Positions 2,292-4,915 of a DNA stretch of 5,383 nucleotides are shown here, piece by piece. The position numbers were made by a program, and so were the translations under genes. The stretch is taken from positions 1-5,383 of the forward strand of contig JAGGVJ010000003.1 in NCBI GenBank assembly GCA_021158055.1, in the 5' to 3' direction. The DNA comes from Candidatus Iainarchaeum sp. GTDB taxonomy: Archaea; Iainarchaeota; Iainarchaeia; JAGGVJ01. The notes beneath the pieces are model-generated. The model was given only the letters and a program-made list of their open reading frames with translations. It did not search any database and was not told the origin of the DNA. Position 1 is the first letter of the stretch. Every line of letters begins with the position of its first letter.

Positions 2292-2346
2292 ATGTTACAC
2301 CAAAACGTAACATTTATATATTAAATGTTACTTTATAACGTAACAT
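2292..2346. promoter_or_regulatory. Symmetric double operator (four ATGTTAC/GTAACAT half-sites) around the TATA box
   Basis: Two inverted repeats of identical design are present: ATGTTAC-8 nt-GTAACAT at 2292-2313 and again at 2325-2346. Their centres are 33 bp apart, about three helical turns. The two inner half-sites also form a perfect inverted repeat with 10-bp arms (GTAACATTTA at 2307-2316, TAAATGTTAC at 2322-2331) around a central TATAT. The four half-sites are thus symmetric about position 2319, inside the TATA box. The last half-site overlaps the ATG of the ATPase, and TAACATGTTA (2341-2350) is itself a palindrome. A protein bound here would block TBP and the start site, so repression is the natural reading. 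The binding protein is unknown; the ATPase itself, which has a winged-helix region, is one candidate. Confidence 0.8.
2314..2321 (+). promoter_or_regulatory. TATA box of the AAA_14/DUF4143 ATPase gene (leaderless promoter)
   Basis: TTATATAT is centred about 27 nt upstream of the ATG at 2345. In archaea this spacing places the transcription start at or next to the A of the start codon. No Shine-Dalgarno precedes the ATG, in agreement with a leaderless mRNA. Confidence 0.65.
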
Positions 2347-3625
2347 GTTAATTGAAATACTAAAAGAGTGGAATCCCTGGTGGGAAAAGGCGGAATTAAT
2401 CCGTGAGATAGAAGGTACTCCAAGGCCATATTATGATGATTTAATTGATTCCATTGCGATAAGGGAGATAACAATCATAACCGGTATCAGAAGATCCGGA
2501 AAAAGTACTTTGATGTACCAGATGGTTAATGGATTGTTAACCAATGGAGTGCCTCCTGAGCAAATTTTATTTGTAAATCTGGAAGATAAGAAACTGATAA
2601 ACTCCGGTCTGGACGATATTTATGACTCATATAGGACATCTTTAAATCCTGACAAAAAGGCATACATATTTCTTGATGAAGTTCACAGAAAAAAGGATTG
2701 GGAAATGTGGATTAGGAAAAAATATGATTTGAAGACCAACAACAAATTTGTGATATCCGGATCCAGCTCTTACTTATTAAAAAAAGAGTATTCCTCTCTT
2801 TTGACAGGCAGGAATCTGACGTTTGATGTCTTTCCCCTTTCTTTTAAGGAATACCTGCTTTTTGCAAACTTATCCGTGGATCAAGCTAAACTTAAAAAGG
2901 GCATAATTCTTGACAGGACAAAACTCGTAATTCTGAAATATCTGGAAACATACTTGAATCAGGGTGGTTTTCCTGAAATTTTCTTTAAGCAGGAAAAATA
3001 TAAAACACAAGTTCTTGAGCAGTATTTTGATGATATACTGTACAAGGATATTATTGACAGGTACAATTTAAACAGCCAGAAAGCAAAGGATTTGGCGTTG
3101 TTTCTGATGACAAATTTTACAGGCATAATCTCGCTGAGAAATTTAAGAAATTCATTGGGGATGTCTTACGACACCATTAAAGATTATATGTCTTACTGCA
3201 AAGAAGCATTTCTTTTTTTTACTCTGGACCATTTTTCGTATTCTTTTAAAGAGCAAAAAACCCTCGCTTCAAAAACATATTGCATAGATAATGGATTGAG
3301 AAACGCGGTCTGTTTTAAATTTTCCAAAGACAAAGGAAAACTTGCAGAAAACCATGTATTTATTGAATTAAAAAGAAGGAAAAAAAATTTACATTACTGG
3401 AAAAACAATGGAGAGGTTGACTTTATTATTAAAAATACTGACCAGTCGCTGACCGCAATAAACGTCACATACACAGACAGGATTAACGACAGGGAGATTA
3501 AAGCGTTGCTTGAGTTTAAGAAAAAATTCAGCAAGACAAAAGAGCTGATATTGTTAACAAGAGATACAGAAAAAAATGAACAGGGAATCAGGTTTATTCC
3601 ATTGTATAAATGGCTGCTTGCCTAA
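2345..3625 (+). CDS. AAA_14/DUF4143 P-loop ATPase
   Basis: A complete 426-residue protein of the ATPase family that joins an AAA-type domain to a DUF4143 domain, abundant in archaeal and bacterial accessory DNA. Its cellular role is poorly known. Visible motifs: the family-type N-terminus (ILKEWNPWWE, 5-14), Walker A G47-IRRSGKST55, Walker B YIFLDE with D111-E112, a sensor-like ISGSS (137-141), LTGR with R156, and YLNQGGFPE (203-211). A helix-turn-helix-like stretch follows (about 245-295), then YCIDNGLRN (312-320). The C-terminus has a PD-(D/E)xK-like fold signature: E335, GEVDF with D359, then INVTY (372-376), where a catalytic ExK would be expected. E and K are replaced by N and T, so nuclease activity is doubtful. 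The ending IPLYKWLL is typical of the family. No membrane segment is seen. The gene stands alone and is convergent with the RelA-like gene. The ATG sits inside an operator, so it is probably tightly regulated. Confidence 0.93.
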   Translation: MLIEILKEWNPWWEKAELIREIEGTPRPYYDDLIDSIAIREITIITGIRRSGKSTLMYQMVNGLLTNGVPPEQILFVNLEDKKLINSGLDDIYDSYRTSLNPDKKAYIFLDEVHRKKDWEMWIRKKYDLKTNNKFVISGSSSYLLKKEYSSLLTGRNLTFDVFPLSFKEYLLFANLSVDQAKLKKGIILDRTKLVILKYLETYLNQGGFPEIFFKQEKYKTQVLEQYFDDILYKDIIDRYNLNSQKAKDLALFLMTNFTGIISLRNLRNSLGMSYDTIKDYMSYCKEAFLFFTLDHFSYSFKEQKTLASKTYCIDNGLRNAVCFKFSKDKGKLAENHVFIELKRRKKNLHYWKNNGEVDFIIKNTDQSLTAINVTYTDRINDREIKALLEFKKKFSKTKELILLTRDTEKNEQGIRFIPLYKWLLA

Positions 3626-3664: not shown

Positions 3665-4735
3665 CTATTTTGAGTATTTATCTAAAATTTTATTAAGATA
3701 AACGAGAAATTCTTTGGTGTCTAAAAAATAATTTGGGTATGCTTTTTTTAAGTCTGACATTGTGTCTGCTCCAACTAAGACAACATCATATTCTTTTTTG
3801 CCATAAATTTTTTTCTCGGCATTTGCATAATCTTTTATTGCTTTTTCTTCTTGTCGTTTCGAATATGCAGAGATTGTCAATCTTTCCAGGACCGTATCCA
3901 ATTCCAATAAAAAGAAATGTATATATTTTTTATTTTTTAGATCATCAAAAAGCTTGATTGATTCAGTCCAACTTTTCATTTTAGTTCTTACATTCAATTC
4001 TTTTTCTTTTTCTTTAATTAACAGATAGAGTTCTTTTTCATCGTCAGGAGTATTTGGTATTGTGGGGCAGCCTTCCATTTTTGCAAATGCGGAACTCATT
4101 AATTTAAAAAAAGCTTTCCATTCTTCTTCCCCTTCATTTAATTTTATTGCCTGCCCTGTAAAAAACCCGACTGTTTCAACCGCAGTAGCCCATATATGCT
4201 GTAATTTTGACCTGATTTGCACTTCAACCAATAAGCCATTATAGATTTTCTTTCCTTTATCGCTGTTATACCTGTAAATCAAATGTATGCTTCTGTATCC
4301 GTCTTTTTTTGGATCGGAGATATAATCTTTTTCATTTACTTTTTTATGTTTCAAATCCCCTTTAATATAATAGTCATTGTATAGTTTTTTTGCTAATTGA
4401 ACATTTGACATTACAACCCTGCAACCGGCTATATCCTGCATTTGTGTAAGTTTCATTGTTGCTTTATTGTCACCGTATTTCCTGTTAAGTTTTTTTATAA
4501 TTGACGGGACACGCTTAAGCCTTTGTACAGATAATGCATTTTTATCTATCTTTTCAGAAACCCGTTTTAATCTTTTCTTAAAAATATGCATGGGATAGCT
4601 ATGTGCAGCTCTCCAGTTACTCAATATTTCTAAAGCGCAATTTTTATTTTCTTCTGATTCTTTACCATCACATAAAATAATTCCTGCAGAATCAGTTTTT
4701 GACTTTGAAAATTCTTTTTGATTTATTGGTTTCAT
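3665..4735 (-). CDS. RelA/SpoT-domain nucleotide pyrophosphokinase (synthetase only, toxSAS/small-alarmone-synthetase-like)
   Basis: A 356-residue protein with a RelA/SpoT synthetase domain at about 40-190, the fold that transfers pyrophosphate from ATP to GDP/GTP or, in toxic relatives (toxSAS), to the tRNA 3' end. Visible motifs: QRLKR-VPSIIKKL (71-83), MQDIAGCR with putative Mg ligand D101 and R106, DYISDPKKDGYRSIH (137-151) with the stacking Y147 and H151, and VEVQIRS (170-176) with E171, followed by QHIWATAVE (179-187). The catalytic set looks intact. There is no HD hydrolase domain and no TGS/ACT region, so degradation must come from elsewhere. Residues 200-356 form an extra region that ends in AYPNYFLDT (332-340). 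From memory, this layout recurs in many bacterial proteins of unknown role. No antitoxin-like small gene adjoins it. RSH enzymes are uncommon in archaea and its A/T richness fits transfer. It could be an alarmone synthetase, a toxin or an antiviral effector. Confidence 0.9.
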   Translation of the reverse strand: MKPINQKEFSKSKTDSAGIILCDGKESEENKNCALEILSNWRAAHSYPMHIFKKRLKRVSEKIDKNALSVQRLKRVPSIIKKLNRKYGDNKATMKLTQMQDIAGCRVVMSNVQLAKKLYNDYYIKGDLKHKKVNEKDYISDPKKDGYRSIHLIYRYNSDKGKKIYNGLLVEVQIRSKLQHIWATAVETVGFFTGQAIKLNEGEEEWKAFFKLMSSAFAKMEGCPTIPNTPDDEKELYLLIKEKEKELNVRTKMKSWTESIKLFDDLKNKKYIHFFLLELDTVLERLTISAYSKRQEEKAIKDYANAEKKIYGKKEYDVVLVGADTMSDLKKAYPNYFLDTKEFLVYLNKILDKYSK

Positions 4736-4792: not shown

Positions 4793-4808
4793 AACTTGAT
4801 GTCAAGTT
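4793..4808. repeat. Inverted repeat AACTTGA-TG-TCAAGTT
   Basis: Perfect 7-bp arms surround a 2-bp centre, about 60-75 bp upstream of the RelA-like start. It overlaps the left part of the first 19-bp direct repeat. A second, wider pair (CGCAAC at 4778-4783 and GTTGCG at 4806-4811) competes for the same bases. It could be an operator or an RNA hairpin. Confidence 0.5.
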
Positions 4809-4817
4809 GCGCGGTTT
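4799..4817. repeat. 19-bp direct repeat, copy 1
   Basis: ATGTCAAGTTGCGCGGTTT is identical to copy 2 at 4897-4915, 98 bp away. Its G+C-rich core (TTGCGCGG) stands out from the A/T-rich surroundings. On the minus strand, sequence before both copies shows patchy further similarity (TTCTTGAT, then AATTTC), suggesting a longer degenerate element. Confidence 0.8.
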
Positions 4818-4896: not shown

Positions 4897-4915
4897 ATGT
4901 CAAGTTGCGCGGTTT
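4897..4915. repeat. 19-bp direct repeat, copy 2
   Basis: This is an exact copy of ATGTCAAGTTGCGCGGTTT, 35 bp beyond the stop of the ATPase fragment. The left flank (GTTCCA) differs from copy 1 (AACTTG), so this copy lacks the 16-bp inverted repeat seen there. The 79-bp interval between copies is too long for an ordinary CRISPR spacer. Confidence 0.8.

Follow-up and report, generated by a model that had tools for sequence, protein, structure and literature searches.

Among the closest described parallels to the locus reported here is ParA of the F plasmid (type Ia), a P-loop ATPase with a winged helix-turn-helix (HTH) domain that binds inverted sites repeated across the promoter of its gene; as in what we propose below, several ParA dimers control that gene and the nucleotide state alters binding (PMC8465637). 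ParA differs in belonging to another ATPase family and to bacterial plasmids, in carrying its winged HTH at the N-terminus, in a 28-bp spacer inside the repeat, and in having ParB as a corepressor (PMC8465637), whereas in our system the winged-HTH-like segment lies in the second half of the protein, compact dyads recur every 33 bp on archaeal TATA promoters, and no partner gene was seen. Pfam finds AAA_14 and DUF4143 in our ATPase instead of the ParA/CbiA family, and the protein is not a type Ia ParA, a group defined by a ParA-family ATPase with an N-terminal winged HTH; one feature of ParA-like autoregulation, a phased set of inverted repeats within the promoter of the ATPase gene itself, is nevertheless present. 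Among archaea, the DNA-damage regulator Orc1-2 is likewise an AAA+ ATPase with a winged-helix domain that regulates transcription under an ATP switch, but it is one global regulator of many genes (PMC9738581), while each operator tested here is private to its own ATPase. Type II toxin-antitoxin systems such as MazE6 (PMC9477884) resemble our case in that paralogous loci of one genome each have their own palindromic operator; they differ in that no antitoxin partner gene was seen here and the proposed binder is the ATPase itself.

The protein resembles the PDC-S01 phage-defence candidates, in which an ATPase is fused to a PD-(D/E)XK-like part (PMC12988326). In that 2026 survey, PDC-S01 ranks fourth in frequency among the defence systems detected in prokaryotes, is enriched in archaea and may have arisen there; it was nominated by genomic embedding, and validation is pending for most such candidates (PMC12988326). 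Some 10,000 PDC-S01 genes are reported from archaea. The words promoter and palindrome are absent from the main text of that paper, and no published account of a PDC-S01 promoter or operator was found in the literature searched, subscription journals and preprints lying outside its scope. The same literature held nothing on such an operator under archaeal ATPase autoregulation or COG1373, and named DUF4143 only in a study of Thermus Argonaute. Autoregulation as such is known; a family-wide 33-bp lattice of dyads with private sequences, in DUF4143 ATPases, appears to be undescribed.

We analysed a window of 5,383 nucleotides, one whole stretch of Candidatus Iainarchaeum sp. DNA, whose relevant features are collected in Table 1. 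Pfam assigns AAA_14 (E 2.1e-36) followed by DUF4143 (E 2.1e-21) to the window ATPase, both over the cut-offs, and the PADLOC PDC-S01 profile matches at E 7.6e-108, making the protein a candidate for phage defence. Matches of PDC-S01 profiles to this protein and the other family members tested reached 1e-115. Start codons are predicted throughout.

Table 1. Operator, promoter and protein features of the ATPase locus, in window coordinates.
Feature	Position	Strand	Basis or remark
Operator dyad 1, ATGTTAC-N8-GTAACAT	2292..2313	.	Exact match; retained in ten orthologues
Operator dyad 2, ATGTTAC-N8-GTAACAT	2325..2346	.	Exact match; retained in ten orthologues; fits promoter position class
Inner inverted repeat with TATAT between its 10-bp arms (formed by the inner half-site of each dyad)	2307..2331	.	
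TATA box TTTATATAT, archaeal core promoter	2313..2321	+	By sequence; midway between dyads in its promoter class
AAA_14-DUF4143 ATPase gene, 426 aa, PADLOC PDC-S01	2345..3625	+	Pfam and PADLOC profiles
Predicted winged HTH, residues about 244-315	3074..3289	+	Alignment of 115 homologues; low-confidence model
Segment best predicting operator sequence across homologues, residues 289-313	3209..3283	+	Partial rank correlation
Q/N-V-[CTS] site, codons 370-376	3452-3472		Alignment of 115 homologues

The four half-sites start at 2292, 2307, 2325 and 2340, giving spacings of 15-18-15 about an axis at 2319, and compose two mismatch-free units that repeat at 33 bp, or about 3.1 helical turns, with the TATA box in between; the inner arms read GTAACATTTA-TATAT-TAAATGTTAC. 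A direct check of the sequence found the coordinates, spacings, axis and inner 10-bp arms to be right as given in the first-pass annotation. Dyad 1 is centred 42.5 bp upstream of the start codon, adjoining or over the BRE position, and dyad 2 is centred 9.5 bp upstream, with its last half-site overlapping the ATG (2345). When up to three mismatches were allowed, dinucleotide-shuffled windows gave a mean of 0.21 unit matches, and two or more in 5/200, against two matches in the real window, both with zero mismatches. The arrangement is the unusual feature, because the number of single half-sites in the window, with one mismatch allowed, is 15 and so equals the 15.0 expected. Across the 1.15-Mb genome, exact ATGTTAC-N8-GTAACAT units occur only as the two at 2292-2346; the search returned one further unit match with two mismatches, as frequent as for a reversed control.

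We drew homologues from GTDB contigs and 193 related genomes; the closest are 57-74% identical and come in part from records labelled Aenigmatarchaeota or Woesearchaeota. Presence upstream of orthologues was one of the points on which the first-pass annotation had staked its operator, and all four half-sites are found in each of the ten orthologues (the window gene counted among them). Their cores are exact GTTAC/GTAAC in 39 of 40 cases, the two cores within a dyad start 13 bp apart in 10/10 orthologues, and the dyads repeat at 33 bp in nine orthologues and at 32 bp in one; spacers and flanks are not alike among the ten. No neighbouring gene is common to the ten loci in the flanks compared (about 1.5 kb for most), with the single type of exception that three loci have a further AAA_14-type gene. 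Because the operator is kept with no shared neighbour, it travels with the ATPase gene rather than with any regulator.

Archaeal operators of this shape, among those studied, are mostly read by dedicated small regulators, and a separate transcription factor (e.g., TrmB-, Lrp- or ArsR-like) could accordingly read the operator and control the ATPase gene. No regulator gene common to the ten loci, and none travelling with the ATPase, was seen in the flanks examined. In favour of a separate reader is the Woesearchaeota orthologue L035 (2001-3230), where 11 HTH residues (helix 2) are lost in frame and yet the operator is intact, its two dyads being perfect and identical; this gap could have arisen by recent deletion or by a fault in the assembly, or it could point to a different reader. 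Another orthologue (L012 / L243, G161:C26) is broken by in-frame stops and has extra operator copies at 33-bp steps in its upstream region.

We scored palindromes over the 130 bp upstream plus 6 bp of each gene against dinucleotide shuffles of the same promoter, taking p<=0.01 as significant. A significant palindrome was found in 40/112 archaeal AAA_14-DUF4143 promoters but in only 3/99 controls, which were drawn from some of the family members' genomes. Strong direct repeats occurred in 52/111 family promoters, 39 of the 52 with a period of 32-34 bp, whereas just one of 24 strong direct repeats in the controls had that period. The sequences themselves are not shared: paralogues and distant homologues have different palindromes, and each clade its own. 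The 33-bp arrangement is thus common to the family while its sequence changes from clade to clade, which the first-pass annotation had no means of seeing. Over half of the family promoters fall short of palindrome significance, in part because long-spacer dyads score low; the window gene has such dyads too, and its own palindrome gave p 0.04 in one run and 0.01 in another. A smaller group of promoters repeats at 23 bp, about one helical turn short of 33 bp (the clade of L064, L075, L076, L077, L090 and L111).

A second set of 38 genes, taken from relatives of a distant archaeon (G113), was gathered after the tests were fixed, and yielded significant palindromes in 18/38 promoters and a period of 32-35 bp in 21 of 24 repeats. 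In Fisher tests the palindromes gave p ~1e-9 in either set and the period gave 4e-9 and 3e-7, values that overstate independence since the genes within each set are related; that both sets agree carries more weight. We conclude that two palindromes about 33 bp apart, clade-specific in sequence, are a family-wide pattern beside the promoter. The signal was weaker in the related family ATPase_2-DUF234, used for comparison (2/18 at p<=0.01), of which L145, L150, L155 and L156 have palindromes near the start codon. Among plasmid homologues, 0/7 (six bacterial, one archaeal) reached p<=0.01, the bacterial sample consisting of these six plasmid genes only; the archaeal one has a 32-bp repeat, and one bacterial one a weak 33-bp repeat. 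On the Arcobacter cloacae plasmid pACLO, a DUF4143-type homologue (L237) lies between cas3 and cas4.

Each operator tested is also private to its gene within the genome. The G000 genome encodes 11 DUF4143 genes; for two others of these, a genome-wide search matched the operator nowhere but at the gene it belongs to, and one of the two operators is again a pair 33 bp apart. The C35 paralogue has a different operator, TATTTGGT...ACCAAATA. One regulator shared by all copies is ruled out by operators that are private and differ between copies, and a separate transcription factor would have to come as about one dedicated regulator per ATPase. In a blind scan of 290 archaeal genomes with the pattern GTTAC-N8-GTAAC-N15-GTTAC-N8-GTAAC (one mismatch allowed), 11 genomes matched, and 10 of the 11 matches lie just upstream of a DUF4143 ATPase; the reversed control pattern had zero matches in the same genomes. 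Eight matches were genes already collected and three were new places, namely a previously undetected orthologue (G284), a different and distant DUF4143 gene (G024), and G025:C7:6784-6834 (L245, one mismatch), the only match with no DUF4143 gene adjacent. Family members can thus be found from the operator alone, G284 being one case. Viral carriage found no backing, as candidate viral-contig stretches contained no relatives of the ATPase; the one viral match to the pattern (L242) sits in overlapping reading frames of a GC-rich contig, lacks an ATPase relative and looks like chance.

Weak palindromes are frequent in AT-rich promoters, and the inner palindrome follows in part from the TATA box, so that symmetry arising by chance deserved consideration. 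Conservation in ten orthologues, the control promoters, the second set and the empty reversed scan already refute it, leaving it a negligible probability, and the first-pass judgement that chance explains the repeat poorly was borne out by the orthologues and the 290-genome scan.

To ask which protein reads the operator, we compared 25-residue protein windows with operator similarity over pairs of homologues, allowing for similarity in the rest of the protein. In the first set the relationship was strongest for residues 289-313, with a partial rank r of 0.21 against a maximum of 0.15 among 200 permutations; it was stable when any single gene was omitted, and fell to 0.03 when promoter letters outside the repeats were put in place of the operator. 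With both sets together the peak was still 289-313 (r 0.22), and pairs between the sets gave the same peak window, reached by 0/60 permutations; the second set alone peaked at 285-309, a value reached by 9/60 permutations. With r about 0.2 the effect is modest, and the permutations preserve kinship only in part. Operator similarity follows residues 277-317, which would comprise the end of the winged HTH and the wing, where most homologues have basic residues at 302, 309 and 310. This covariation gives the strongest computational indication that the ATPase may read its own operator, and together with the private operators found across the family it supports the autoregulation through an HTH-like region that had been raised as a possibility at first pass. 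That the operator varies in step with part of the very protein it precedes also counts against a separate transcription factor, which we regard as unlikely.

An alignment of 115 homologues places the winged-HTH-like segment in the first part of DUF4143 in all of them. The low-confidence structure model has helices at 244-259, 264-271 and 275-296 and strands at 300-305 and 309-315 (a hairpin); with a mean AlphaFold pLDDT of 38 (single sequence) or 39 (three sequences), the models are too poor to confirm a winged HTH. Solved structures gave weak matches to the ATPase domain (2fna_A) and none to the HTH segment. Walker A residues G47, R49, G52 and K53 and Walker B D111-E112 are invariant or nearly so in the 115 homologues. 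In the PD-(D/E)XK-like part, E335 and D359 are retained in nearly all of them, and Q/N-V-[CTS] (NVT in the window protein) replaces E-X-K in nearly all, so that the full catalytic set of a PD-(D/E)XK nuclease, lysine included, is not present. The nuclease-like part is probably inactive or altered throughout the archaeal homologue set examined, and because the triad is without its lysine in nearly all homologues, a role in DNA binding or sensing is likelier than cutting.

These features bear on whether the repeats are regulatory at all. They could instead be places that the protein targets, cuts or recombines, or what is left of a mobile element, as the protein's PD-(D/E)XK-like C-terminal part (PMC12988326) would allow and as orthologues spread over several archaeal groups with differing neighbours, in the manner of mobile genes, might hint. 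This is very improbable given that the sites hold fixed positions relative to TATA box and start codon throughout the family, that the gene is not flanked by sites, and that the catalytic lysine is absent in nearly all homologues.

Relative to the start codon, dyad centres in the 63 promoters with phased repeats cluster near -75, -42 and -9, and a TATA-like box, scored by simple patterns, lies within 9 bp of the dyad midpoint in 30/63. About half of the phased promoters, the window gene's included, form a first class in which the dyads flank the TATA box and one covers the start site. In a second class (roughly one-third; for example L033, L037, L041, L097, L100 and L233) both dyads lie upstream of the TATA box, at -75 and -42, the second just before it and the 33-bp lattice unchanged; the -42 site is common to both classes. 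In the second set, several unrelated operator sequences stop exactly at the ATG, as does the window operator. The layout of the second class may reflect activation or a different block. Positions -75 and -42 are a usual place for archaeal activators, and the AAA+ winged-helix protein Orc1-2 acts both ways through ATP binding and hydrolysis (PMC9738581), so the ATPase might bind its own promoter as an activator, or switch sign with its nucleotide state. Where one dyad covers the start site and the other adjoins the TATA box, as at the window gene and in roughly half of the promoters with phased repeats, occupancy should block initiation, and we consider activation or a sign switch somewhat less probable even than a separate regulator, although the sign of control is less certain where both dyads lie upstream of the TATA box.

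The reading we prefer, to which we assign a probability of about 0.74, is that the element serves as an operator with two sites, to which the protein encoded by the gene behind it binds as two phased dimers, probably repressing that gene, and that every copy in the family probably controls itself in this way, through binding at its own gene. Each palindrome would bind one AAA_14-DUF4143 ATPase dimer through the winged HTH, and the two dimers, separated by three turns of the helix and so on the same side of the DNA, would lie over the BRE/TATA region and the start site, keeping TBP, TFB or polymerase off and holding the gene low. Release would follow a signal, probably sensed by the ATPase itself, such as its nucleotide state, an invading nucleic acid or a partner. 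The binder, the dimers, the repression and the signal are all steps that we infer; conservation strongly supports what was pictured at first pass, an operator that takes two dimers on the same side of the helix and overlaps TATA box and start site.

More tentatively, and with less than even odds, the archaeal DUF4143/PDC-S01 ATPases may constitute an unrecognised transcription-factor family, combining a winged HTH, private dyads on a 33-bp TATA-locked lattice, an inactive nuclease-like part and an ATPase serving as sensor and switch. Were this so, some 11 self-controlled units, each orthogonal to the others, would share one genome. The private operators also provide a ready-made collection of archaeal regulator-operator pairs that may be orthogonal. 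A private operator per gene offers a cheap and concrete handle on PDC-S01, through assays of promoter binding and of the ligand that would release the ATPase. It also touches on the question of how a small archaeal genome can maintain so many copies of a single ATPase and still avoid cross-talk.

Downstream of the ATPase gene, on the reverse strand, the window contains a gene with a RelA/SpoT domain (3665-4735, E 1.1e-19) in a genome that its relatives and its promoter mark as apparently archaeal; alarmone-synthetase-like genes of this kind are unusual in archaea. A 19-bp exact direct repeat, ATGTCAAGTTGCGCGGTTT, occurs at 4799-4817 and 4897-4915, 98 bp apart, in the gap between this RelA/SpoT-like gene and a DUF234 gene.
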